A stretch of DNA of 38,244 bases, from positions 1-38,244 of the forward strand of contig WFSF01000167.1 in the NCBI GenBank assembly GCA_015486155.1, read 5' to 3'. This DNA comes from Armatimonadota bacterium. GTDB taxonomy: Bacteria; Armatimonadota; Hebobacteria; Hebobacterales; Hebobacteraceae. Both the position numbers and the translations under genes were made by a program. The notes under the pieces were generated by a model. The model saw only the letters and a list, made by a program, of their open reading frames with translations, ran no database searches and was not told the origin of the DNA. Shown one piece after another: positions 17,389-35,535 of this stretch; the stretch's first letter is position 1; each line of letters opens with the position of its first letter.

Positions 17389-18114
17389 TCAAGTGAGCTT
17401 GGCGAGCTTCCGCCATTCCGCAACGAAGTGGTCCTTGGTCTTCTTCTCCACTCCAGGGCCCTTGAATTTGTACTCGACGTCCTTGACGTCAACGTCCACC
17501 TCACCATAGCCGCTGGTCTTCTTGGCTCCGATGCCGATGCTGGGCAGCAGCTCCAGCGCCTCGATCACCGCACCCACCATCCAATCCTCCGGGTTGGTAA
17601 GGACGACCTTGCCGGAGAACGTGACTCCTGGAGGCAAGGTCTCGATGGTCATCAGCGCGCCCCCGGCGGCGGTCTTGGTGTCGCGGCGCAGGGCCACGTG
17701 AGTGCGTTCGGTGGTTTCAGGAAAATCTCCCTCCAAGTGGGCGTCGCGGAAACTCGCCCGCCCGGCCATCTCCGTGTTGCCGAACATCCGGCACACCGGG
17801 CATGGGTTATCCCGGCTGGAGCGGCCACAGTCCTCTTTGCGTCCCTCGGGCACAGTGCGATCCCGTCCCAGGCAGACGAACGGCACACAGATCTCTCCCG
17901 GCATCGCCTGGGCCAGCACCGCCTCGACGGTGCTCCGTACCATCCCCTTCAAACTCGAGCCGGAGATCACCGGCTTCGATTCCGGCCCCGCCTCCCTGAT
18001 GATCAAATTGTCCCTCAGTCCATCACCTTTTCCAGTGCCGATGGAGACACTACCTTCAGTAGTGACTTGAAAGGGCACGGAGATGATAGCCTCCAATCGT
18101 TGAAACCCTGTCAT
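17389..18114 (-). CDS. cas7: CRISPR type III Cas7 backbone protein (Csm3/Csx7-like RAMP)
   Basis: A 241-residue RAMP protein. VSIGTGKGDGLRDNLIIRE then VISGSSLKGMVRS (residues 24-61) is the canonical Cas7 N-terminal motif. CPVCRMFGNTEMAGRASFRDA (near 108-128) is the zinc-knuckle and FG segment of Csm3/Cmr4/Csx7. LLPSIGIGAKKTSGYGEV is the C-terminal G-rich loop. D35 aligns by eye with the catalytic Asp of Csm3 (D33 in the Streptococcus protein), so target-RNA cleavage may be retained. I chose ATG 18114 (GGGAGG five bases upstream) over a TTG at 18135. It is the only Cas7 in the operon, whereas classical III-A/B/D loci carry several. Confidence 0.85.
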   Translation of the reverse strand: MTGFQRLEAIISVPFQVTTEGSVSIGTGKGDGLRDNLIIREAGPESKPVISGSSLKGMVRSTVEAVLAQAMPGEICVPFVCLGRDRTVPEGRKEDCGRSSRDNPCPVCRMFGNTEMAGRASFRDAHLEGDFPETTERTHVALRRDTKTAAGGALMTIETLPPGVTFSGKVVLTNPEDWMVGAVIEALELLPSIGIGAKKTSGYGEVDVDVKDVEYKFKGPGVEKKTKDHFVAEWRKLAKLT

Positions 18115-18131
18115 CCTAGCCTCCCGTTCGG

Positions 18132-18515
18132 TCAAGATCCACGCGGCCTACGACGGCCATATTTCCCAGAGCGCGGTCTTCGAAGTCGATTCACGTAGCG
18201 CAACGCGTTCGCGCGCTTGCGCATCAGGTAACGTTCTTCTGACTCCTCGGTATCACTTGCGCGTCCCGCCGAAGTGATGTGGTCAACGAGTTTCCGCAAT
18301 GCATCCGCGATGGCAAAGTTCTCGTTCCTATTACGGTGGAACTTGACCGCGTTCTCCCTCGCCTCGATGTCCATCAGCAGATGGTCAAGGGGCACTCGGG
18401 CGGCAAGATCCGCCAGACTGCTCAACTGAGCCTTTCCCGCATCTCTTTCCCCGCCGGCCGGCATCAACGCAGCCGCTGCCCGAATCAGCTTTACCTCTTC
18501 ACCAGTGAAATACAT
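18132..18515 (-). CDS. cas11: CRISPR type III small subunit (Cas11/Csm2-like), tentative
   Basis: A 127-residue, entirely helical, basic protein: an N-terminal half (FTGEEVKLIRAAAALMPAG), a middle HRNRNENFAIADALRKLVDHI, and a very Arg-rich tail (RLRRPRSGKYGRRRPRGS). The size, charge and place between Cas10 and Cas7 are those of the Csm2/Cmr5 small subunits that line the complex and hold target nucleic acid. The sequence itself is not diagnostic. The ribosome site GGGAGG is ideal before ATG 18515. The stop is 18 bases before the Cas7 ATG. Confidence 0.6.
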   Translation of the reverse strand: MYFTGEEVKLIRAAAALMPAGGERDAGKAQLSSLADLAARVPLDHLLMDIEARENAVKFHRNRNENFAIADALRKLVDHITSAGRASDTEESEERYLMRKRANALRYVNRLRRPRSGKYGRRRPRGS

Positions 18516-18528
18516 CTCAACCTCCCGC

Positions 18529-20970
18529 TCACGGTCTCGTTGCCCGCGCCAGCTCCCTCAGATGCTGCGCTGCTTCCAGTGGGGTGCGGTTCCGAATGAT
18601 GTCGGCGACCAGCTCGCGCATATCGTCCTCGATGTAGCGCGCCCGGCCGTCCAGATCCATCAACAGCGTCTCTCGTGTGCCCTCATTGCCCTCCGGCGCC
18701 AGGGCCCCCAACTGTTCCGCCAGCAGGGCCAGCGCGTGAAGCTGAGCCGCAGACTGCCGCGATGGCTCGGCCTCCAGAAGCTGGCGGGCCTGTTCCCCCT
18801 TGAACTCCCGTACCTGTCCCCCGCGGAGCACGCGGTAGGTGAGATCGAGCTCTGCCATCTCTTGCGCTTGCGCCGCGGCATATAGTTCCTTGTGGCTGAC
18901 GTGTACGGGCGAATTCGGGGGAGGCACGGCCTGCCTGTTTGACTGTCGCCAGGCCTGATATGCCTTTCCGGCCTCACCGCGGAACTTTCTCGCGGCGGCC
19001 GCTGCTTCATCTGGCCTCTTCGTCGTCTCCAGGGTTCTTCCCGGTCCCGTGAACAGCGTGGACAGTGCGTCATAGAGCGGATAGTGGGTGTCACAGGTGA
19101 TGATGTCCAGCCGGTGGGCCAGGTGGAGGGTCTCCAGATCTTTGGTGATCTTGCGGTATGCCGGGCGGAGCAAGGTTTCGCTGAGCAGTATCACAGTGAG
19201 CGCAGGAGATCGGTAGACAAAATGCGCGGCCGCCTCTCCGATCTGTCCGCTATAGATCTTGTCGGCCAGCCATTCCTGCCATTCCTCCTGCTTGCGGCCG
19301 ATCTCCAGCACCGCCTGCAAGTACTCCAGCTCTCCTCCAGTGCCGTGCACCAGGGGCATGCGGTCCTTGGCGGTATCGAGGCTGTTCTGAAGGTTCTGTC
19401 CGGTCAGACCGCAGCTCTTCAACACCTCCTCTTCCGCCGCCAGTCTCTCCTCACGGAACTGGGCCAGACGCAGCTCGGACTCCACCTCCATCCCCTCCGG
19501 GGTGGCCCCGATGCGCACCGCGATGATCGCCACTCGTTCGCCCGTGAGGTCGAGCAGGCGGATGAGCTTTCCTGTAGCGGACGGTGGGCGTGGAGCAAGG
19601 TCACCCCCCAGTTCCCCACACAGGGGACACGCGGGAGCCCTCGGAAACAGCGCGAGACACTTCGGGCATTCCCAATACTCGCGTCGTATCCGGTAACAGG
19701 TCTCACACAGCTCGTCTTCCAGATCGGTCTTCTGCTGTCCGGGGGCGATCGGCTTGTGGCATACAGCGCACTCGTGCGCCGCTACCTCCGGAACAGTGAG
19801 GCCAGGCATAGCCCATTTGGTCTCAGGGCGACCATCTGGTGTTTCAGTGCGGCATCCAATATAGCCAACGCCCACGGCGCGATGCGCAAGGGTCGCGGCA
19901 GGTTCTACTCTCGTCTCTTGTCGCCCATCACGCGGTGCCAGCGTCAGCAACTGCCTCTCCACCCGGAACGGTGTCTCTGTCTCTCCTGCTACTTCCTGAG
20001 TAATCCTCAGAATCTCCTCATCGTCTGCACGCCGGTTCAGCAACACTATGGCTTCCTTGCCATAGAACACAAATGGCGACAGGTGAGGATGGCTGAACTC
20101 GCGGCACGCCAAGCCATCCTCCAGCAGGTATCGGCCCTTCAGATACTGATGGAGGCGGATCAGGAGCCATTGGCTGATCTTGCGCAGGTGCATGGCATCT
20201 CGCAGGCGATAGCGTAGGCGTTCAACAGGGAGAGTGATCACCGTGCGGGTCATTTCAAGCGTGATGGCGGGACGCATATCTTTCCCGGTCCCACACACAG
20301 GGATCCCGCCCTTATCCTCAAACTCTTTCATCACCATCAGATAGATGGCGGCCGACAGTTGGTGATGGAAGTGCAGAGAGGTGACCGGCAGGAAGGTGGA
20401 GTCGCCGAAGTCGGCCAGAAAATCCTCGCCCAGATTGACTATGAACCTGGCATCCAGGCGGCCGTTCTTTAGATGTTGTTGAATGTGCTTGGCGGCTTCA
20501 AGGAACCGTTTCTGGGCATTGGAAACGGTCCACTTCTTCGCATCACCCCAGAAGGGGTAGTACCAGGGGAGCCGCCAGTTGACACCCTGGATCTCACCAC
20601 CCTCCTCGAGCCAAAAATACAGGGCTTTGTGCGCCCGATCCGCGAACGTGAGGGCCAGATAGGAGGCCACCAGCTCTGGGGAAAGATGCCGCTTTAGTTC
20701 GGCCCGATCGTTCGTCTCTCGCAGGCTCACTTCGTGCAGCCAGATCAACTTGAGCTGCGCCTCGTTCTCAAGGTCGAGCCTTGGCGGCTTTGTGCCCAGG
20801 GCGGTTGCGAAGGCCTGTTGCTGGGTTGCGTCGAGCTGGGTGGAGAGGTGGGCAAGGTTCGCATGATCGGGACCCCACGTGCCATAGCGCTTACCGGCAT
20901 TGTTGTTGAGCAAGACCTTCTTGAGGTCGTGGAGCGCCGCCGCTACATAGCCGTCATCCCACTCTGACAT
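18529..20970 (-). CDS. cas10: Cas10-like large subunit lacking the GGDD cyclase motif
   Basis: An 813-residue large subunit. The N-terminus has ALHDLKK (H14, D15) and DHANLAHLS (near 35-43), which look like an HD-nuclease domain although the usual HDxGK lysine-glycine step is altered. Two adjacent four-Cys zinc ribbons lie at C401/C404/C422/C425 and C435/C438/C448/C451, in the usual Cas10 position between the palms. After them RVAIIAVRIGATPEG (479-493) matches the palm strand where active Cas10 has an Asp, and no GGDD occurs anywhere; the only GGD (455-457) is inside a ribbon. The C-terminus is helical, as in Cas10 domain D. An inactivated palm occurs in types III-C (Csx11) and III-F; one Cas7 and one Cas5 favour a III-F-like plan. 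It starts the effector operon, 154 bases below array 1. Confidence 0.78.
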   Translation of the reverse strand: MSEWDDGYVAAALHDLKKVLLNNNAGKRYGTWGPDHANLAHLSTQLDATQQQAFATALGTKPPRLDLENEAQLKLIWLHEVSLRETNDRAELKRHLSPELVASYLALTFADRAHKALYFWLEEGGEIQGVNWRLPWYYPFWGDAKKWTVSNAQKRFLEAAKHIQQHLKNGRLDARFIVNLGEDFLADFGDSTFLPVTSLHFHHQLSAAIYLMVMKEFEDKGGIPVCGTGKDMRPAITLEMTRTVITLPVERLRYRLRDAMHLRKISQWLLIRLHQYLKGRYLLEDGLACREFSHPHLSPFVFYGKEAIVLLNRRADDEEILRITQEVAGETETPFRVERQLLTLAPRDGRQETRVEPAATLAHRAVGVGYIGCRTETPDGRPETKWAMPGLTVPEVAAHECAVCHKPIAPGQQKTDLEDELCETCYRIRREYWECPKCLALFPRAPACPLCGELGGDLAPRPPSATGKLIRLLDLTGERVAIIAVRIGATPEGMEVESELRLAQFREERLAAEEEVLKSCGLTGQNLQNSLDTAKDRMPLVHGTGGELEYLQAVLEIGRKQEEWQEWLADKIYSGQIGEAAAHFVYRSPALTVILLSETLLRPAYRKITKDLETLHLAHRLDIITCDTHYPLYDALSTLFTGPGRTLETTKRPDEAAAAARKFRGEAGKAYQAWRQSNRQAVPPPNSPVHVSHKELYAAAQAQEMAELDLTYRVLRGGQVREFKGEQARQLLEAEPSRQSAAQLHALALLAEQLGALAPEGNEGTRETLLMDLDGRARYIEDDMRELVADIIRNRTPLEAAQHLRELARATRP

Positions 20971-21124
20971 GAGTGCCCCTCGTGGGTAGAGTTGGCGTGC
21001 AACTGCCCTGTTGCCGTTGCCTTACTTCTCTCCCCGGCCCAACACCTCCTTCCCGCTCACTATCGGGTTTCCACCTTCCCCTGCCCGGCCAGCGCCACAC
21101 AGGTTCCCCGACAATTGGCCGAGC
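20971..21124 (-). promoter_or_regulatory. Region between array 1 and cas10 (5' region of the effector operon)
   Basis: The 154 bases between the decayed last repeat of array 1 and the cas10 ATG are C-rich on the plus strand and contain no gene. They must hold the cas10 ribosome site and possibly a promoter; no clear -35/-10 is visible, so read-through from array 1 is equally possible. Confidence 0.35.
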
Positions 21125-22033
21125 GCCGCCAGAGGCTCTTTCGCCTTCAGTGGTCCTCACGGGGTCGCCCCAGGATCTCGTTGTCGCTTACGGCGCCCAT
21201 GGGTTTCAATAGGCTCTTTCGCCTTCAGTGGTCCTCACTGGCTACTCTAGTCTTGAAAGGAGGTCCATATCCAGTGTTTCAATAGGCTCTTTCGCCTTCA
21301 GTGGTCCTCACATTCGTTCCGGGAGGTTATTATCTCCGCCCTTCGGGCGTTTCAATAGGCTCCTTCGCCTTCAGTGGTCCTCACCTAGAGTGGAGGGAGT
21401 TCATGGAGTTCACTACTGGGTTTCAATAGGCTCTTTCGCCTTCAGTGGTCCTCACATTCGTTCCGGGAGGTTATTATCTCCGTCCTTCGGGCGTTTCAAT
21501 AGGCTCTTTCGCCTTCAGTGGTCCTCACAGTGCTTGGACTAGCTGGTGAAATCACCTTCGGGTGGGTTTCAATAGGCTCCTTCGCCTTCAGTGGTCCTCA
21601 CGCGGAGGCGATCGCCCGGTCGCCGTTTTTCGACGGGTTTCAATAGGCTCCTTCGCCTTCAGTGGTCCTCACCTCGTATGTGAAATTTGACGGGGACGAA
21701 ATCTACAACGTTTCAATAGGCTCTTTCGCCTTCAGTGGTCCTCACCCGACCATCGAGGACTGGCGCGAGAAGTGGATGCTTAGTTTCAATAGGCTCTTTC
21801 GCCTTCAGTGGTCCTCACGGCGGAGGTGATCGCTCGGTCGCCGTTTTTCGACGGGTTTCAATAGGCTCTTTCGCCTTCAGTGGTCCTCACGAGAAGGCCA
21901 TCGAGAAGGTCAACTCCGACTCTTCTGTTTCAATAGGCTCTTTCGCCTTCAGTGGTCCTCACCTTCAGAGGGAGATTGAGAGAAGGATAACACTTCTGTT
22001 TCAATAGGCTCTTTCGCCTTCAGTGGTCCTCAC
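21125..22033 (-). CRISPR. CRISPR array 1: 13 repeats of 36 bp, 12 spacers
   Basis: Repeats start at 21125 (decayed), 21203, 21276, 21349, 21420, 21493, 21566, 21637, 21710, 21783, 21855, 21927 and 21998. In crRNA orientation (minus) the repeat begins GTGAGGACCACTGAAG and ends GCCTATTGAAAC, giving the 8-nt handle ATTGAAAC. A stem AGGC/GCCT with loop GAAAGA (or GAAGGA) lies directly before the handle. Spacers are 35-37 bp, with one of 42 at the old end. Leader on the right, decayed repeat on the left. Spacers 3/5 and 7/10 are near-duplicates. Confidence 0.98.
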
Positions 22034-22256
22034 TTCGCCCTTGTCAGGGCCTCTTCCTTCTTCCGGGAGCCAAAATTTTTGGGGTTTTCCGCAAACCAAA
22101 TGCCTGTTCGATAGTACGCGCTTGCTTGCCCATATCGCGAAAACGCTCCAGATTGCCCTTCAATGCCCCTATTTCCCCTTCCGCCAACCTACCGGGGTTC
22201 TTCAAAGCAAACCGGTTGGCGGAAAATCACCCCTTTCCGCTTATGCATAGGTGGGA
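22034..22256 (-). promoter_or_regulatory. Leader of array 1
   Basis: 223 bases that match the sequence beside array 3 with only three differences, all transitions. It holds an inverted repeat TTCCGCCAACC (22179-22189) and GGTTGGCGGAA (22214-22224) with a 24-base loop, and a palindrome-like A/T patch CCAAAATTTTTGG about 40 bases from the first repeat. Such conservation at the leader side of both arrays identifies it as the leader, with the array promoter and adaptation signals. Confidence 0.88.
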
Positions 22257-22312
22257 TGTCACCCCGCGCCCCGGCGGGAAGAAGCCTACCCCTTACCACT
22301 CATCCGGACACG
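22257..22312. other. Short junction between leader 1 and the old end of array 2
   Basis: A 56-base GC-rich stretch (begins TGTCACCCCGCG) between the outer edge of leader 1 and the decayed repeat that ends array 2. No gene or motif is seen. Confidence 0.5.
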
Positions 22313-23420
22313 CAATGTCCCCGCCCTTTCCCCATCCCGCCGTTGCAACGCACGATGAGACGGAGGAGAAGCACCCCCTGCGGTTTCAATCGGGTCTTTC
22401 CCCGTCTAGCCGTTGCAACGAATGGCTTTGTGAGAGGTGCTACAAGCGCAAGGGGTTTCAATCGGGTCTTTCCCCGTCTAGCCGTTGCAACCCCACCCCG
22501 CGAGCACGCCTCGCTCCCGGTCGTGGTTTCAATCGGGTCTTTCCCCGTCTAGCCGTTGCAACACGCGCATGAAAGGAGAAAGGAGGTGAACGCGCATGTT
22601 TCAATCGGGTCTTTCCCCGTCTAGCCGTTGCAACGCAACGGGCAATGCTGGAGGCACTCCTGTACGGTTCGTTTCAATCGGGTCTTTCCCCGTCTAGCCG
22701 TTGCAACGAAGTTCCGCCCCCCCCAAGAAGGGGATACGGTCTGTTTCAATCGGGTCTTTCCCCGTCTAGCCGTTGCAACATCAGTCTTTCGCGCGGGTCC
22801 CCCGACAAAGGAGTTTCAATCGGGTCTTTCCCCGTCTAGCCGTTGCAACGCAGTTATCGAGGAGGCCCCTCTCCTCACCTTGGTTTCAATCGGGTCTTTC
22901 CCCGTCTAGCCGTTGCAACGGAGTACGGATTGATCGCCGCGGACGGCGAGACGGGTTTCAATCGGGTCTTTCCCCGTCTAGCCGTTGCAACACACCCGCT
23001 TGCTCGACGCCGTCACCTGCGCAAAGTTTCAATCGGGTCTTTCCCCGTCTAGCCGTTGCAACAAATACTGTGATGGAGGTGATGACGATGAGGATTGTTT
23101 CAATCGGGTCTTTCCCCGTCTAGCCGTTGCAACGGCAGGTAAGGTTTGTTCCTGCCCCCGAAGAAGACGTTTCAATCGGGTCTTTCCCCGTCTAGCCGTT
23201 GCAACGGCGCCCGGTGTGGGCCTTTCCCCTTCTACCCCCGTTTCAATCGGGTCTTTCCCCGTCTAGCCGTTGCAACGGCTACCCACCCCACGGTAAAGGG
23301 CCGCCCCGGTGGTTTCAATCGGGTCTTTCCCCGTCTAGCCGTTGCAACAGCTGAGCGGGCTGGCCCGCACCATCGCCCAGATTGTTTCAATCGGGTCTTT
23401 CCCCGTCTAGCCGTTGCAAC
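22313..23420 (-). CRISPR. CRISPR array 2: 16 repeats of 37 bp, 15 spacers, second repeat family
   Basis: Repeats start at 22313 (decayed), 22383, 22455, 22526, 22598, 22671, 22743, 22813, 22883, 22955, 23026, 23097, 23169, 23240, 23312 and 23384. In crRNA orientation (minus) the repeat begins GTTGCAACGGCTAGAC and ends CCCGATTGAAAC. A stem CGGG/CCCG with loop GAAAGA precedes the same ATTGAAAC handle as the other arrays. The intact repeats are identical to each other. Spacers are 33-36 bp. The decayed copy at the left keeps the first 24 bases of the crRNA-sense repeat (three mismatches) but has lost the handle end, marking the trailer. Confidence 0.98.
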
Positions 23421-23619
23421 GGTACCTCTCCTATGGCTTCGACATTGCCCTGCAAGGCTCCTTCCTGCAGGGATGTGGCGAACCCGCGTTTTTTGCGCAA
23501 GACGGCGCTGCCTCCAAGTGCAACCGCAACCAGCCGCAGAACGCCATCTGAGCCCCCTGGCAGCCTTTCGGCGAACCTCCCCTGTGAAATGCACCTGCTC
23601 CAGGTTCGCCGCCGCCTGT
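23421..23619 (-). other. Region between array 2 and cas6; no conserved leader
   Basis: 199 bases at the side where the leader of array 2 should be. It shows no resemblance to the 223-bp leader of arrays 1 and 3. A hairpin CCCTGCA/TGCAGGG lies at about 23449-23473. The first 35 bases could be one more spacer whose outer repeat was lost, so the leader end may be truncated and the array read from cas6/array 3. Confidence 0.4.
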
Positions 23620-24438
23620 CTATCCCGCAATCACCTCCACCCGGCCGGCCCCCTCCAGGCTCCGGCCGCCTATCCCCGCATACGGGGCCAGCCGCACCAG
23701 TGCCGAGACCGCGAGCCATGGCTCCGCCCGGGGCCTCCCCGGCACCGCGAACTCCACCTCGCCCATGAACCCCTGCAATCCACCATCCCGGACGCCCTGG
23801 TCCTCCGTCCACAGGTCGTGTATCGCGGTGATCCGCACGTGCTCCTCCACCCAGGCGCGCACCCCGCCCGGCGGAAGCGTGGGCAGGTCTGCACTCTCCT
23901 CGGGCGCGAACGCATTCCATTTCTGCGTCAGCCCGCTGAATAGGAACCTCGGCTCCGGCAACACCAGCGGAGACCTCATCCCATCCGGCTGGATCACCAC
24001 CGGAGAGAGAAATCGGAATCCCCATTTGCGGAGCCGCCTCCCCCTGAACATCTCTCCATAGTCCCCCCGTCTCACTTCCCGGGGAGACTCCGCCACCCGC
24101 ATCTCCGTCTGCCCCAGCCGCAGCGCCTCACCCGCCTCAGGCAGCCCCTCCCTCAGCGCCTCCGCGGCCCGCTCGGTCAGCGCGGATATCTCCAGGGAAT
24201 AGGTGTGTTCGGAAGAGAGAAGGTGGGCCCCATCCTGCGGCTCGCCCGCGCCCAGCAAAGGCGAACACGCAAACGGCTTCGGCCGTCCTCCGCCCTCCTC
24301 GTGCAGGAAACGGGCGAACTCCGCATCCCCCCGCGCCAGCCACCCATACAACAACGCCCTCACCGCCCGGCCGTGAGCCGCAGGCAACGCCGCCCACCGC
24401 GCCACCAACCGCAACGGAATCTCAAAAACCCTCACCAT
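23620..24438 (-). CDS. cas6: Cas6 pre-crRNA endoribonuclease
   Basis: A 272-residue RAMP endonuclease that cuts repeats to leave the 8-nt 5' handle. Landmarks: likely catalytic His22 in LPAAHGRAVRALLYGWL, FRFLSPVVIQPDG near 142-153, LPEPRFLFSGLTQKWNAF near 160-177, GFMGEVEFAV near 223-232 and the C-terminal glycine-rich loop YAGIGGRSLEGAGRVEV (253-269). All are typical of Cas6. The gene sits between array 3 (upstream) and array 2 (downstream). Its ATG at 24438-24436 shares its first base with the last base of the decayed terminal repeat of array 3, and the AAGGAG ribosome site (24454-24449) lies inside that repeat. Confidence 0.9.
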   Translation of the reverse strand: MVRVFEIPLRLVARWAALPAAHGRAVRALLYGWLARGDAEFARFLHEEGGGRPKPFACSPLLGAGEPQDGAHLLSSEHTYSLEISALTERAAEALREGLPEAGEALRLGQTEMRVAESPREVRRGDYGEMFRGRRLRKWGFRFLSPVVIQPDGMRSPLVLPEPRFLFSGLTQKWNAFAPEESADLPTLPPGGVRAWVEEHVRITAIHDLWTEDQGVRDGGLQGFMGEVEFAVPGRPRAEPWLAVSALVRLAPYAGIGGRSLEGAGRVEVIAG

Positions 24439-25277
24439 CGCCCATAGGCTCCTTCGCCTTCAGTGGTCCTCACAGGTCAAGGCCGCGAAGAAGAAGGCGA
24501 AGGCCAAGAAGGGTTTCAATAGGCTCCTTCGCCTTCAGTGGTCCTCACTATAGTGATGACGAGAGGGGAAAAAAGGATGGGGGCGTTTCAATAGGCTCCT
24601 TCGCCTTCAGTGGTCCTCACGCTATAAAGCTGGAGGCCGCGGCCAACGCGGCCACCGTTTCAATAGGCTCTTTCGCCTTCAGTGGTCCTCACACAACGGG
24701 AGATTGGACGTGGAGGATGCAGCACTGTTTCAATAGGCTCCTTCGCCTTCAGTGGTCCTCACTGGTATCCGCTTTACTTCTGGTGCCTCGATAACAGTGT
24801 TTCAATAGGCTCCTTCGCCTTCAGTGGTTTTCACCCAAGAGAATAACTTCTCAGCGAAATCGAGGACGTCTTGGTTTCAATAGGCTCTTTCGCCTTCAGT
24901 GGTTTTCACGTTGTATTTGCTGTGAACTCCCACGTTGTGGGAGAAAAAGTTTCAATAGGCTCTTTCGCCTTCAGTGGTTTTCACCCAAGAAGGCCAAGGC
25001 CGGCTAAACGCTAGCTGGTCCGTTTCAATAGGCTCTTTCGCCTTCAGTGGTTTTCACTTCTATGACGAGCTCTCGAAGGGCGTGGAGTGTATACGTTTCA
25101 ATAGGCTCTTTCGCCTTCAGTGGTTTTCACCAATTGATGGCTGAGATAGCCATTGATTGCCGTTCCAGTTTCAATAGGCTCTTTCGCCTTCAGTGGTTTT
25201 CACCCTAATCGCTTCTGGCCGGCCTAGGATTTCAATAGCGGGTTTCAATAGGCTCTTTCGCCTTCAGTGGTTTTCAC
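24438..25277 (-). CRISPR. CRISPR array 3: 12 repeats of 36 bp, 11 spacers
   Basis: Repeats start at 24438 (decayed), 24513, 24585, 24657, 24727, 24799, 24874, 24949, 25022, 25095, 25168 and 25242. Same family as array 1. The seven leader-side repeats begin GTGAAAACC in crRNA sense, while the five older ones begin GTGAGGACC as in array 1; the loop also varies (GAAAGA or GAAGGA). Both changes fall outside the stem. Spacers are 34-39 bp. The youngest spacer (25204-25241) contains TTTCAATAG, a copy of part of the repeat end. Confidence 0.98.
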
Positions 25278-25500
25278 TTCGCCCCTGTCAGGGCCTCTTC
25301 CTTCTTCCGGGAGCCAAAATTTTTGGGGTTTTCCGCAAACCAAATGCCTGTTCGATAGTACACGCTTGCTTGCCCATATCGCGAAAACGCTCCAGATTGC
25401 CCTCCAATGCCCCTATTTCCCCTTCCGCCAACCTACCGGGGTTCTTCAAAGCAAACCGGTTGGCGGAAAATCACCCCTTTCCGCTTATGCATAGGTGGGA
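25278..25500 (-). promoter_or_regulatory. Leader of array 3
   Basis: 223 bases, 220 identical to the leader of array 1, with the same inverted repeat (25423-25433 and 25458-25468). Identity stops sharply at 25500, 35 bases before the end of the CARF-HEPN gene, which sets the outer limit of the copied unit. Confidence 0.88.
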
Positions 25501-25534
25501 CTGAGGCCCTCCAAAAACCCTCGTTTCACCGGGA

Positions 25535-27073
25535 TTATCCAGCAGATATCGGCGGCCCGGCGTGGCGGGCCTGCCCCACCAGGGTTTTGAATTCGTTGTG
25601 CGTGTCCTCTCCCAGCACCGCCCGCAAGATGTATGCGACTTCCCTCTTCGCGTGTTCGTACTCCTGTTTCTCCAGTGGTTGCGTGCCGTGCGCCTGAATC
25701 GAACGGTTGCGGGCGTTGAATGCGCCGTCGGGCCCGAGTTTCGCGCGCACAACCTTGTAGCCCTTCTCTTTGAAGTCATCGTCCAGCACGGCCAGCAAGG
25801 AGGCCAGAGCGGCCAGGCCAAGGTAAGTCCTTGGCAGGTGCGGCTTTTCCCCGGACTTGTCCGGAGGCAGCGCATCCACCTCCGAGTGCAGCTGGTCGAA
25901 ACTCTTGTTTGTTTCCCTCTTCACCGCGCTCCAGTCCGGCCGCTCGGTCCGCTTCAGACCATAGTCCTGCAACCGCACCGTCAGCGCCATCTCGGTGGCG
26001 CGGTAGAGCCGGGCCACCGCGTCGTCATATTTTGCTTGCGCTGCGCGCCGCTCGGCCTGTGCCCACAGATCGGCCAGGCGGTGCAGGTCGCAGACGTTGG
26101 TCGCGCCCTTTTTCGGAGCAGGCATTCCCTTGAGGAATTGCAGGTTCTCCGCGCGTTGCTTGGCGTCCGGATCAGAGAGGCCGAATCGGCCCAGGTCGGC
26201 GATCAACCCCTCGAGCCGCCCGGCCAGGTCAGGCATCTTGTCCTGGTCGGGGTGGCTGTGCATGAAGGCGTCCCACTGTTGGCAGATGTCCAGCCACTCC
26301 CGCATCAGCTCCAGCCGCTTGGCCGTGGCCATGTCTCGCACCTGTTCCAGCACCGAGTGGCACAGCTGCAGGCCGGCGTCGTAGAACCCGAGCTCGGAAA
26401 ACTTACAGATCTGCTCGACCTCTATGTCGGCAAACGCCTCATAGGGGTTGTTCACATCCACCAGCTCCCCGGCGAAGGGAATCGGCACGCCCTGTTTCGC
26501 GGGGCAATAGAGGTAGGTGATGGGGACTCGATGGTAGAAAGCCCAGGTCGCCAGGGAGGCCACCATCATTTTGGTGCCGGCTGTGGGGTCGGCCGCCAGC
26601 CGGGGGTGTGTGTAACGCTTCCTCGCGTCGGTCCACGCTCTGTCCATCGCCTGGTAGTTTCCAGGAGCATCGTACTCGGTGATGCGCCGCTTCAGGCAGG
26701 TGATGCCGGCGCGCGTGATGTCTGGGTCCTGCGCCACTTGCCTTGCGGTCTTTTCTGAGGCATCGGTGTGAAACAGGTAGGCCGCTTTCGGCCGGACCGC
26801 GAGAATGCTGAGCACCACCGGCTCGTGGGTCATGCCCACAGTGAGGAACATGACGTCGGCCTGCCGCTCCCCCGCCGCTGTCTCGGGAAGAGCCTCCTTC
26901 TCCAGAGCGAACGCATCACGGCGCGCGGTCCAGAGGAGGGACTTGCTGTCGGGGCTATCCGGGATCTGTGCGAACTCCCGCGCGATCTCCATCGCGCGGG
27001 CGCGCTTCTTCTCGGGAAGCGCGGCGAATTGAGCCTGTTGGGCGGCGCTGAATTCGTCGCTATCTGTCGCCAT
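25535..27073 (-). CDS. CRISPR-associated CARF-HEPN protein, TIGR02710-like (Csm6/Csx1-type ribonuclease)
   Basis: A 512-residue cytoplasmic effector. Residues 72-180 form a CARF (Rossmann-like) domain: ADVMFLTVGMTHEPVVLSIL opens it, and DPTAGTKMMVASLATWAFY (162-180) is the conserved ligand-side motif of the TIGR02710 family. The middle is helical. A HEPN RNase motif, RNRSIQAH (R455/R457 to H462), lies in the C-terminal helical domain. In the family, cyclic oligoadenylate from Cas10 binds CARF and switches on RNA cleavage. AGGAGAGAT before ATG 27073 is a good ribosome site. The gene reads toward leader 3 and array 3. The Cas10-like protein of this window has no GGDD, so the source of its activator is unclear. 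Confidence 0.88.
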   Translation of the reverse strand: MATDSDEFSAAQQAQFAALPEKKRARAMEIAREFAQIPDSPDSKSLLWTARRDAFALEKEALPETAAGERQADVMFLTVGMTHEPVVLSILAVRPKAAYLFHTDASEKTARQVAQDPDITRAGITCLKRRITEYDAPGNYQAMDRAWTDARKRYTHPRLAADPTAGTKMMVASLATWAFYHRVPITYLYCPAKQGVPIPFAGELVDVNNPYEAFADIEVEQICKFSELGFYDAGLQLCHSVLEQVRDMATAKRLELMREWLDICQQWDAFMHSHPDQDKMPDLAGRLEGLIADLGRFGLSDPDAKQRAENLQFLKGMPAPKKGATNVCDLHRLADLWAQAERRAAQAKYDDAVARLYRATEMALTVRLQDYGLKRTERPDWSAVKRETNKSFDQLHSEVDALPPDKSGEKPHLPRTYLGLAALASLLAVLDDDFKEKGYKVVRAKLGPDGAFNARNRSIQAHGTQPLEKQEYEHAKREVAYILRAVLGEDTHNEFKTLVGQARHAGPPISAG

Positions 27074-31248: not shown

Positions 31249-34200
31249 ATGATTTACGTCTACGTTACCGAGAAATGCTGGGAAGAGGCGACAGAGTGTG
31301 GACTAAAATCGCATCTGGAGAAGATCCGGGATGACGTTGAGACCAGACAGATGATCCATTTCCAGCCCTTTCCCCCAACGCCCTTCTGGAAGAAGGGGAT
31401 CACTCGAAGCCATCGCCTCTTGATACGTGAATGGAATCTCGGCGAGGACTCCCTCTATTCATTCGAACATGTGCTTTCCAGAGGAAGCCAAGATTATATC
31501 TACTTTTTCAATAACTGTAAGCGAAACACCAGAGAGGTAGAACGACGCTTTGTGACAGTAAGCGAGCAAATGGCCCGACAAATCATACGAGATCGCAAAG
31601 GAAGCGAGCCCGTGCGTGAGTTGCCGACTCCTAGCGAGACTGAGTCTAACTGGTTGTATGGAGTGGCTTCACTTCGGGGAGAGAGCCAAGATGACGTGCT
31701 GATTCTCGAGACCGAGGAATGGGTCCAAGAGATGCTGTCCAAGGAAATGGTGAAGTATCATGTACCATATTATCAACTATTGTCCCATGCTATCGTAGAG
31801 GAGCAGCGTTTGCAGGAGTCAAGATCAAAGAACGAGGTGCATATTTGCTGGGATGACAATCGCAGACGTGGTTTTGCATATGTGTACCGTCCCGATCAGC
31901 GGCGGATCGTTCTCCTCACCCCCTTACATCACGCCGATCGTGTAGAGTCCAAGATTACTGCACATCGCGACAGATTGTCTCAATTGGATGAAAGCGAGAC
32001 TGCGCGCGAGCTCTCGCGCGTCGCGTATCGGGCCTACCCGGAGATTGTCCTGTATGATGAAGATTGCTGGATGGCCATTCAGAAGGATCAAGAAGCCAAC
32101 CTAGCTCTCTCTCCAGAGGAAATTGAACTTCTGGAATCAGTACGGCGTGGAGGGGACAGCGGAAAAGGTTATCCCCTCTTTATCAACGGCCGAGCAGGTA
32201 GCGGCAAGTCAACTATGCTCCTCCACCTAGCGGTGGAGTACCTCTTATTTGCTTTACGCCAACAGGACGATCTAGTCCCCTTGTACGTTACCTTTAGTCG
32301 AGACCTTCTTGAAGTTGCGCGTAGAACCGTTCGATCACTATTGACAATCCACCACGAACAACTCACTGGAAATCATGCCAATTATGATATGGCTCAGATC
32401 GACGACTTGCTGGCGCGGTCCTTCGTCGTTTTTCATGAGCACGTTAGAGATCTGCTACCGGCGCGTGAACGCGATAAGTTTCATTCCGACAAATTCGTTC
32501 ACTATCCCAAATTTCTTGAGCTGTGGCAAAGAGACTTCGTGCGCAGACCTGAAGCCAGGAAAATCTCCGCTGACGTGGCGTGGCATACGATCCGCTCCTA
32601 CATCAAGGGAATGCGGTCCTCGCTTGACGATGACCTATCGCCCGAGGAATTCGAGGGATTGCCTTCAAACCGACGCTCCATAGATATGGACGCGTACCAA
32701 TTTGTCTACGAGCGCGTCTGGGAGGGCTGGTACAAGAGACTCTGCGACAGAGAGGGCTATTGGGATGATCAGGATCTTGCCGTTGCAGTTCTAGATTCCA
32801 GGCACAACGTAGCAACCTATCCGGCTATATTCTGCGATGAGGCGCAAGACTTCACATCTGCAGAGCTGGATCTCATCCTTCGGATGTGCCTGTTCTCCGC
32901 CAAACAGCTGACACCTGAGCAGCTCAGGACAGTCCCTATCGTATTTGCAGGTGACCCGCTACAAACCATCAATCCTACGGGGTTCAGATGGGACGCATTC
33001 CAGGCGAACTTTCATGAACGCTTCTTCGTGTTGCTGCATCCACATCGCCGTACGAACATTACCCTCCGTCACGAGGAGCTATCCCTTAACTATCGGTCGA
33101 ATCCGGGAATCGTGCACTTTTGCAACCTCATTCTGCTGTTACGCGCAACGCTCTTCGGCGACCGAGAAGCAAATCCCCAGCAAACCTGGTGGGTAGAAAC
33201 ACCCGTACAACCGATCTGGATTGATGCAGACAATCCTCAGACGAGAGACGAGCTGCGGAGACATCCAGAGTTGGTGAAAATTGTCAACTGCGAGTACAAC
33301 CGAGAGGTCTACTACGCGGAGAAAGACGAAGTGCTGAGGGATCTGCCATTAGAAGAGGGAGTCCCCAAGGGCGTCCTCAGTCCAGTGCGGGCGAAGGGGC
33401 AAGAATTTCATACAACGGTGCTTTACCGGTTTGGAGACTCCGATACCGCCAAAGGCATAGTTGAAATGTATCAATCCCTTGCAGATGGCACCTACCAACC
33501 AGTCGAGGACCGGGCACAGCTCCTTAAGTACGAATACTTCCTGAACCGCCTGTACGTGGCAGCCAGCCGCGCCAAGAAACAGCTGTTCATTGTTGACTCA
33601 CGACAAGCGCTCGACAGTTTCTGGAAATTTGCCTTCGACGAAGGATTTCGTGAGGCGCTGGAACGACAAGCAGCTGCATCAGAGGCGTGGCGTGATAAGA
33701 CCAGAGGTCTAGTGGCGGGTCAGCCCCAAGCGCTCTCGGGCAAACCAATCGATCAGCTGGAGCAGGCCAGTGAATTGGCAAGAGCAGGGCGCCAATCCCA
33801 TGACCCGTACCTTCTGCGACAAGCAGCAGGTTGCTATCGAGGAGTGAACAAGCAAATAGATGCCGAGCGATGTCTCGCGGAAGCCCTGCGCTTTGAAGAG
33901 AAGTTTGCGGATGCCGGCAAGAGATACGAGGGTATCGGCGATGCCGAAAATGCATTCCGATGCTACTGGAACGGTCGCTTATTCCGGCACCTGTGCGAAC
34001 TTGCAAGCTCCAATCCGGGGTTCAGTTCTAGACCAGAAAGCCGCGCGTCCGATTTTGTAGTTCACGACGAAGGTGTCCCCGAGGAATTTCTCTCCGCGGT
34101 GCTCTCAGATACCCAAGATGATGAATGGGTGCGGGTAGCCGCAAGCGATGAGAGTTGGTGTTACATCTTCGGAACCCTTGCGAAAAGGCTGGCAAACGCT

Positions 34201-35535
34201 GAGCGCGACATTATAAATATAAAGCGCTGGAGCCGATTGCATGCGATGTTCGAGCGGCTGTGTGCAGCTGGAATGCCACTGAATGCAGACCATCGCGCTG
34301 CCATAGCGTATAAGGCGGGACAAGACCGCATCGCCGTAGAGATATGGGATAGCACTGGTAACACCGAGCACTCCGAGTACTGCCAAGCGAAGGCTAAGGT
34401 TGAACCGTTTCCAAGGAATTTGCCATGGCTTTCCAGGCTGAACTTTCATAAGCAAATTCTTCAGGAGTATCGGAAGCACCGGATGGATACGTACGGTTCT
34501 GGCAGCCTAGCCGAAGACGCTGCGATGGCGGTAATTACTGCCGCCATCGCCGAGCAGAACGGGCATCTGGCACTCGAACTCCTTGCAGAACACCCTGAGA
34601 ACGATGAGCATATTAAGGCTGTATTGAAGATAGCCGTGCGTGAACAAGACGCAGATCTGGCAACGGCCGGTGCTTGTCTACTAATCCGACGCATGGTGGC
34701 TCGCCAGTCATGGAGAGCAACGGTGAGGGCGGCAGAAAACGCGGATTTTCGGGAACTAGGACACCCCCTCGCTAAAGAGCTTCAGAGTCTTCTCAAACAG
34801 AGCGATGGCATGCAGCGAGTCTTCAACAGCGCGATATGGGCCTTTGCTACGTCTTCAGATCTCCCCGGTTCGAAACAGCAACAGATAGTCTCGGAATTCC
34901 TCAGGCGTCATTTCGTAGCATCCCACACGGCAAAATCGGGCCGACAGTCGCTGCCGGTGGAGGTGGTTGGGGCAGCGATCGAACGCGCGGGGTTAATAAC
35001 TCTTTCGTTTCAGTATTATGAGAATATTGAAAAGGATCGCTCTGCGTCAGACAGGGAACGACGCTTCGCGGTCCAGCGGCAAATTCGAAATCAGGAAAGG
35101 TATGCGGGTTATCTGCGTAGCATAGGTGACGAGTCCCAAGCGATAGAACGAGAGCATTTGGCGCGGGAGCTCAGGAAGAAACACGGTTTCTCGCAAGATG
35201 CGGTCTTCCCTGACTACCCTGAAGTTTCATCTGACCAGATGAACACATCAGAGCTAAGGTCGGGGATTGACAAACCTTTTGTTTGGGAATTCCGACCGCG
35301 CGAGAATCGTGTGCGCATTAAACATGATGAGAGGGATGAGGCGATTTCCATCTATTACCTCAAGCCGGAGGTGCGAGGCGAGGTCGATTGTTCTGAGATG
35401 CCACCGACAGAAGGAGAGTGGGCGTGGAGTATCGCGGAGTGGGATCTTATATTGCGTCTTCGCACCGAAGGCGATGCCCTTAAACTGCGCCTAGAACATG
35501 GAGGCAGGTTTGTAAGGCAGATTGAGGTAGCATGA
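31249..35535 (+). CDS. Large SF1 (UvrD/Rep-like) helicase with long helical C-terminus, possible defence gene
   Basis: 1428 residues with all the SF1 landmarks: Walker A NGRAGSGKST near 313, Walker B FCDEAQDF near 530, motif III AGDPLQTINPTGFRWDAF near 568, motif IV LSLNYRSNPGIVHF near 613, motif V VRAKGQEFHTTV near 715 and motif VI LYVAASRAKKQLFIVD near 768. The first 110 residues (MIYVYVTEKCWEEA...) look like a small alpha/beta domain, RelE/ParE-like by impression only. Residues 830-1300 are TPR-like helices (FEEKFADAGKRYEGIGDAENAFRCYW), as in TRANK1-type helicases. AGGAAGAGG before the ATG is a good ribosome site. Codon usage is more AT-rich than in the neighbours and an IS remnant abuts the 3' end, both suggesting transfer. 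Anti-phage function is plausible, not shown. Confidence 0.85.
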   Translation: MIYVYVTEKCWEEATECGLKSHLEKIRDDVETRQMIHFQPFPPTPFWKKGITRSHRLLIREWNLGEDSLYSFEHVLSRGSQDYIYFFNNCKRNTREVERRFVTVSEQMARQIIRDRKGSEPVRELPTPSETESNWLYGVASLRGESQDDVLILETEEWVQEMLSKEMVKYHVPYYQLLSHAIVEEQRLQESRSKNEVHICWDDNRRRGFAYVYRPDQRRIVLLTPLHHADRVESKITAHRDRLSQLDESETARELSRVAYRAYPEIVLYDEDCWMAIQKDQEANLALSPEEIELLESVRRGGDSGKGYPLFINGRAGSGKSTMLLHLAVEYLLFALRQQDDLVPLYVTFSRDLLEVARRTVRSLLTIHHEQLTGNHANYDMAQIDDLLARSFVVFHEHVRDLLPARERDKFHSDKFVHYPKFLELWQRDFVRRPEARKISADVAWHTIRSYIKGMRSSLDDDLSPEEFEGLPSNRRSIDMDAYQFVYERVWEGWYKRLCDREGYWDDQDLAVAVLDSRHNVATYPAIFCDEAQDFTSAELDLILRMCLFSAKQLTPEQLRTVPIVFAGDPLQTINPTGFRWDAFQANFHERFFVLLHPHRRTNITLRHEELSLNYRSNPGIVHFCNLILLLRATLFGDREANPQQTWWVETPVQPIWIDADNPQTRDELRRHPELVKIVNCEYNREVYYAEKDEVLRDLPLEEGVPKGVLSPVRAKGQEFHTTVLYRFGDSDTAKGIVEMYQSLADGTYQPVEDRAQLLKYEYFLNRLYVAASRAKKQLFIVDSRQALDSFWKFAFDEGFREALERQAAASEAWRDKTRGLVAGQPQALSGKPIDQLEQASELARAGRQSHDPYLLRQAAGCYRGVNKQIDAERCLAEALRFEEKFADAGKRYEGIGDAENAFRCYWNGRLFRHLCELASSNPGFSSRPESRASDFVVHDEGVPEEFLSAVLSDTQDDEWVRVAASDESWCYIFGTLAKRLANAERDIINIKRWSRLHAMFERLCAAGMPLNADHRAAIAYKAGQDRIAVEIWDSTGNTEHSEYCQAKAKVEPFPRNLPWLSRLNFHKQILQEYRKHRMDTYGSGSLAEDAAMAVITAAIAEQNGHLALELLAEHPENDEHIKAVLKIAVREQDADLATAGACLLIRRMVARQSWRATVRAAENADFRELGHPLAKELQSLLKQSDGMQRVFNSAIWAFATSSDLPGSKQQQIVSEFLRRHFVASHTAKSGRQSLPVEVVGAAIERAGLITLSFQYYENIEKDRSASDRERRFAVQRQIRNQERYAGYLRSIGDESQAIEREHLARELRKKHGFSQDAVFPDYPEVSSDQMNTSELRSGIDKPFVWEFRPRENRVRIKHDERDEAISIYYLKPEVRGEVDCSEMPPTEGEWAWSIAEWDLILRLRTEGDALKLRLEHGGRFVRQIEVA

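Follow-up and report, generated by a model that had tools for sequence, protein, structure and literature searches.

The window analysed here is a whole contig (WFSF01000167.1, 38,244 nt) of a 2.58 Mb, 267-contig, 87.5%-complete draft genome of the phylum Armatimonadota, to which the relatives of this genome also belong. It holds a CRISPR neighbourhood in which a Cas10-like protein and a CARF-HEPN ribonuclease (RNase) of the TIGR02710 family are encoded on the same strand. In the order of minus-strand transcription, the CARF-HEPN gene (27073-25535) is followed by leader and array 3, cas6, array 2, leader and array 1, and then by the cas10-like, cas11-like, cas7 and cas5 genes (20970-16444; Table 1). 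The 4.56 kb gap between the Cas10-like open reading frame (ORF) and the CARF-HEPN gene contains arrays 1 to 3 and cas6, and 35 bp separate the end of the array 3 leader from the CARF-HEPN stop codon. A first-pass annotation of this DNA had placed the two genes correctly in position, strand and spacing, and had presented them as a puzzle: an RNase that should need cyclic oligoadenylate (cOA), next to a Cas10 unable to make it.

Residues 462-740 of the Cas10-like protein were modelled with AlphaFold2 (AF2). The model is still weak, with a predicted local distance difference test (pLDDT) value of 53 overall and 65-85 in the core strands. Its strands and helices run beta-alpha-beta-beta-alpha-beta; beta-1 is VAIIAVRIGATPE, and HFVYR-SP-ALTVILL forms the hairpin of GGDD type (in full: beta-1 VAIIAVRIG, helices, beta-2 HFVYR, turn, beta-3 ALTVILL, helix, beta-4, helices and a beta-hairpin). 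Neither place retains its metal-binding acids: AVRIGATPE stands for ADGD/ADVDNLG (DxD), and YRSPALTV for GGDD. In canonical Cas10s of this phylum, beta-1 is AILVADGDRMG or GVLRLDVDHLG and the hairpin has LVYAGGDDVLALLP. The phylum's 30 top-ranking canonical Cas10 palm2 loci served as a control; they gave ORFs with GGDD, 29 of them clean and one (L056) probably in a wrong frame. Active variants of GGDD include AGDD, GGED and GGDE, among others (PMC11229360), and the hairpin found here fits none of the published ones. The only known relative of the protein, described below, has VAYVMIATSC at beta-1 and FLYRSPSLTV at the hairpin, so that neither member has a palm2 GGDD motif (or variant) or a beta-1 Asp, and we rejected a misread motif as the cause. 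The palm2 domain of this protein therefore appears to be catalytically dead, and since both members lack the acids, their loss most likely precedes the divergence of the two lineages. The missing GGDD and Asp of the first-pass annotation are thus borne out by comparison with the relative and, as far as the model allows, by the palm structure that it had asked for. The palm1 hairpin keeps one acidic residue in both members (GKE/TKD). Canonical palm1 hairpins, for which no catalytic role is known, have a similar form (GGKFYLLLP).

The 813-aa protein has no meaningful match in Pfam, NCBIfam, PADLOC or PHROGs, and none to the PADLOC Cas10 models at E<1. Its layout comprises an HD domain (residues ~1-120), a palm1 domain with a degenerate hairpin (FYGKEAIVLL, 302-311), zinc ribbons (C401-C451), palm2 (~465-735) and a C-terminal helical domain. 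In profile-profile alignment with canonical Armatimonadota Cas10s, the zinc ribbon alone clearly exceeds shuffled controls (hhalign score of 37.7 against the Csm1 zinc ribbon; shuffled maximum 19.6), and the Cas10 identity therefore rests on structure and context rather than on sequence. The first 26 PDB matches of a full-length model in Foldseek were all Cas10, Csm1 or Cmr2 (best E 1.9e-3, probability 1.00), although this model, built by AF2 on two sequences, failed (pLDDT 38); the palm2 piece matched Cmr2, adenylate cyclases and GGDEF domains with E no better than 0.07. Because the models are poor, these matches support the identity and do not prove it. Taken together, operon, domain layout and Foldseek support a very divergent Cas10-type large subunit, which puts the label "Cas10-like", at first a reader's impression, on a better footing.

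A search of 291 Armatimonadota genomes and of a public genome set gave a single relative, with ~30-34% identity, on PEVN01000501.1 of the metagenome-assembled genome (MAG) Armatimonadetes bacterium CG06_land_8_20_14_3_00_66_21 (hereafter CG06); scans of genomes, viruses and plasmids gave no relative beyond this MAG. CG06 has the identical gene order cas10-cas11-cas7-cas5, followed by its own array. An ORF-calling artefact was rejected, as the operon is conserved and its frames are open in both genomes. The four type III effector subunits (Cas10, Cas11, Cas7 and Cas5) are thus encoded in one operon that is kept in two genomes. The HD ligands H14, D15, H36, H79 and D111 are invariant in both members. 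Cas7 matches a Csm3 model (4.9e-35) and, weakly, Cas7_IIIf (3.9e-9); the Asp of its GLRDNLIIRE segment aligns with the GGxDxP Asp of canonical Csm3, a putative target-RNA cleavage residue, and is kept in both members. The retained residues suggest a complex that would cut DNA, and probably RNA too, without synthesizing a messenger. In terms of nearest families, Cas5 is closest to Csx10, and Cas7 to Csx7/III-D Cas7 and gRAMP domains.

The CARF-HEPN protein has an intact CARF Lys and an intact HEPN motif, the latter as the first-pass annotation had stated. It scores 98.4 bits against TIGR02710 (cut-off 83.9; E 4.1e-28), and it has the CARF motif DPTAGTK with K168 and the HEPN motif RNRSIQAH (455-462), whose R455 and H462 form R-x(4-6)-H; by score, CARF Lys and HEPN motif it is a member of this family, so that a CARF effector is present in the locus. 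An N-terminal extension of ~72 aa is preceded by a good AGGAG-type ribosome-binding site before the ATG. TTHB144 of Thermus thermophilus, of the same family, is a self-limiting RNase activated by cyclic tetra-adenylate (cA4; PMC6599890). In the alignment K168 corresponds to K94 (the essential, cA4-binding CARF Lys), T82 to T11 (one of two Thr) and H462 to H368 (the HEPN His). Unlike TTHB144, to which it is 25% identical, the protein has the extension and an adjacent Cas10 that is cyclase-dead. Relatives were found in plasmids (Thermus TIGR02710, 25% identity) and none in viral contigs.

A possible source of the activator was sought elsewhere in the genome. Neither a canonical Cas10 (models TIGR02578, TIGR02577 and PF22335) nor a second set of repeat-associated mysterious proteins (RAMPs) was found in the 87.5% that the assembly covers. 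Another Cas10 may still supply the signal, as the first-pass annotation suggested, since the assembly lacks 12.5% of the genome. We put the chance of a true canonical Cas10 in this genome at about one half, an estimate that assumes a true Cas10 rate of ~0.88 among CARF-HEPN carriers and a 0.15 chance of the draft missing it. A search with SMODS gave an operon of the cyclic-oligonucleotide-based antiphage signalling system (CBASS) type on contig C157 (L089/L090, ~24-26 kb), in which a CD-NTase (PADLOC cyclase model, E 3e-108) is followed by Cap15 (PF18153, E 1e-37). Cap15 is a member of a receptor family for cyclic dinucleotides, which makes it improbable that this cyclase provides cA4. The pair adjoins a gene for a NOV_C-domain protein. 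The Panoptes synthase mCpol (PF18182) had no match in the genome.

Across the 291 genomes, a strong palm2 match was present in 16 of 21 CARF-HEPN carriers compared to 50 of 270 non-carriers (Fisher p 8e-8), a strong association of CARF-HEPN with canonical Cas10. Excluding the present genome, 16/20 carriers have a canonical Cas10 and about one fifth have none detectable. In the seven loci that were fetched, a GGDD Cas10 and the CARF-HEPN gene always share one locus (7/7), with a Csm3-type gene in 6/7. Besides this genome, the carriers lacking a Cas10 match are G231, G254, G266 and G269. The missing Cas10 of G266, where cmr3-cmr4 adjoin the CARF-HEPN gene at a contig end, is an assembly loss. 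The 98%-complete G254 carries a TIGR02710 CARF-HEPN together with a second CARF protein (TIGR02619) and gave no Cas10 palm2 match. CG06 (93% complete), with the same operon and an array, has no PF09670 CARF-HEPN and no Csx1-type CARF, and a congener of our genome (G001, 80% complete) shows neither the Cas10-like gene nor CARF-HEPN. The Cas10-like/CARF-HEPN pair is thus not conserved, in the one comparison (with CG06) that two known family members afford. At L064:9162-11540, in an Armatimonadota genome of 98% completeness that gave no palm2 match, a TIGR02710 CARF-HEPN gene is directly followed by one for a TIGR02619 CARF protein, possibly a Cas10-free CARF pair.

In two published surveys, the cyclase-dead subtypes III-C, III-F, III-G and III-H are reported without CARF or cOA effectors (PMC11229360, PMC12669027). 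The locus resembles III-F (Thermotoga lettingae Tlet_0097-0100) in its small gene set, four genes being listed there, and it resembles all four subtypes, which are grouped as palm-dead, in a Cas10 with HD and without cyclase motif (PMC11229360, PMC12669027, PMC8036902). Unlike them, it encodes a Cas10 without PADLOC Cas10 match and a Cas7 that resembles Cas7_IIIf only weakly and retains the putative catalytic Asp, and it includes a gene for CARF-HEPN. III-F is defined by HD present, cyclase absent and no effectors; HD is present and the cyclase absent here as well, but the CARF-HEPN gene lies in the locus, while the CG06 locus is without it. In III-H a palm-dead Cas10 is combined with a Cas7 whose catalytic Asp is not conserved, whereas here this column is conserved with canonical Csm3. 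The nearest families of Cas5 and Cas7 recall III-D (Synechocystis Csx10 systems), III-E and III-I, from which the locus differs in one unfused Cas7, a separate Cas11, and a dead palm2 with an intact HD. A recognisable HD occurs in only 3% of III-D systems, thought to act mainly via cOA signalling (PMC11229360). The locus is therefore an unusual exception (n=1) to the published rule that a dead cyclase goes without messenger-dependent effectors, and both its parts are intact save for the cyclase site. It further represents a type III lineage of four genes, HD-only and very divergent, which is known to date from two Armatimonadota genomes and whose Cas10 is missed by the profile libraries searched.

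We consider it fairly probable that two separate modules share one CRISPR neighbourhood, namely a messenger-free HD/Cas7 complex and a CARF-HEPN RNase with another or a lost activator. The first would be a type III effector reduced to four genes (cas10-cas11-cas7-cas5) and accompanied by cas6 and three arrays; its Cas10 has lost the cyclase site and kept the HD nuclease. Its complex would bind RNA matched by the CRISPR RNA (crRNA), Cas7 would cut the bound RNA, judging from its conserved Asp, and the HD domain would cut DNA, judging from its conserved ligands, with no messenger being sent. The second would be an ordinary CARF-HEPN RNase of the cA4 type, intact but not activated by the neighbouring Cas10. 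The activator of this RNase may be made by a canonical type III Cas10 encoded in sequence absent from the assembly; alternatively, the gene may be an orphan or a recent passenger. The activities are predicted from residues lost and retained; the separation draws on the pair not being conserved in CG06 and on the lack of a detectable canonical Cas10. It is also favoured by the association of CARF-HEPN with canonical Cas10 across the phylum, by the assembly loss seen in G266 and by the Cas10-less G254. Several points weigh against such a separation. The CARF gene lies within the same cluster, on the same strand and 35 bp from an array leader, and keeps its activation residues as if used here; the 87% of the genome that is available shows no further type III gene; confidence in the structure models is low; and the sample of two family members is small.

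The same proximity and intact CARF Lys and HEPN motif, the failure to find another cOA source in the genome and the conserved acidic residue of the palm1 hairpin would favour activation by the palm-dead complex itself, through a non-canonical nucleotide, a relocated active site (for example in palm1) or direct contact. However, its positive support goes no further than proximity and intact motifs, one acidic palm1 residue does not make an active site and canonical palm1 hairpins look similar, the sister system of CG06 does without CARF-HEPN, and so do the published palm-dead subtypes (PMC11229360, PMC12669027). We hold this account to be very improbable, although a functional Cas10-CARF link, if true, would be a new way of triggering CARF RNases. 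Also unlikely is a stand-alone or guard role for the RNase, in which it would sense a nucleotide of non-Cas10 origin, whether produced by CBASS, made by a phage or involved in a decoy scheme like that of Panoptes. The guard logic of Panoptes (mCpol and OptE; PMC12657218, PMC12657230) would account for an effector without induced signal, three further genomes (G231, G254 and G269) carry CARF-HEPN without detectable Cas10, and a CBASS cyclase is encoded on another contig; but the effector differs from that of Panoptes, mCpol was not found in this genome, the CBASS cyclase has Cap15 as its own effector, and the CARF residues match those of a cA4 sensor (PMC6599890). The guard proposed by the first-pass annotation thus gained no positive evidence. 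It is also quite doubtful, in our view, that the CARF-HEPN is an idle remnant of a canonical type III system once present here. Arrays 1 and 3 differ in repeat from array 2, which hints at a second system, the duplicated leader indicates rearrangement, and neither the Cas10-like gene nor CARF-HEPN was found in the congener G001; intact activation and catalytic residues and a good ribosome-binding site are unlike a decaying gene. The observations of the first-pass annotation stand (a palm2 dead by sequence, an intact CARF-HEPN, no second Cas10 detected), while its treatment of the two proteins as one puzzling pair is not supported, given CG06 and the Cas10-less carriers, one of them 98% complete.

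Table 1 Features of the CRISPR neighbourhood. Positions refer to the forward strand of the window. Column Evidence denotes the matches or characters used for assignment.
Feature	Position	Strand	Evidence
Cas5 (Csx10/Csm4-like RAMP), 309 aa	16444..17373	-	39% to CG06 Cas5 over 173 aa; RAMP family matches
Cas7 (Csm3/Csx7-like RAMP)	17389..18135	-	sole Cas7; RAMP family matches
Cas11-like small subunit, 127 aa	18132..18515	-	36% over 110 aa to CG06 homologue; no match in family libraries (Pfam, NCBIfam, PADLOC)
Cas10-type large subunit, 813 aa	18529..20970	-	operon, domain layout, Foldseek (supporting)
CRISPR array 1 and leader	21120..22256	-	13 copies of a 36-nt repeat, GTGAGGACCACTGAAGGCGAAAGAGCCTATTGAAAC as transcribed
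CRISPR array 2	22320..23423	-	16 copies of a 37-nt repeat unlike that of array 1
Cas6 pre-crRNA endoribonuclease	23620..24438	-	TIGR01877, E 8.9e-18, above cut-off
CRISPR array 3 and leader	24444..25500	-	12 copies, array-1-type repeat; leader 98% identical to array 1 leader
TIGR02710 CARF-HEPN RNase, 512 aa	25535..27073	-	TIGR02710 match above cut-off

The repeats of the arrays are absent from the remainder of the genome, as judged by a genome-wide repeat search, and comparison of the arrays against phage records gave short, weak matches only. A 259-nt block consisting of the last repeat and the leader is doubled with 98% identity (21998-22256 in array 1, 25242-25500 in array 3), with array 2 and its different repeat in between. 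In the stretch 24438-24475, the shortened terminal repeat of array 3 stops ~10 nt before the cas6 ATG. Its AAGGAG would act as the cas6 ribosome-binding site, so that binding or cutting of the repeat by Cas6 could regulate its own mRNA. Farther along the window, a 1428-aa protein (31249-35535) has weak matches to UvrD/superfamily 1 helicases and NTPases, some of them to GajB models, and the GC content at third codon positions of its gene (0.56) is far below that of its neighbours; it is possibly an acquired defence gene.

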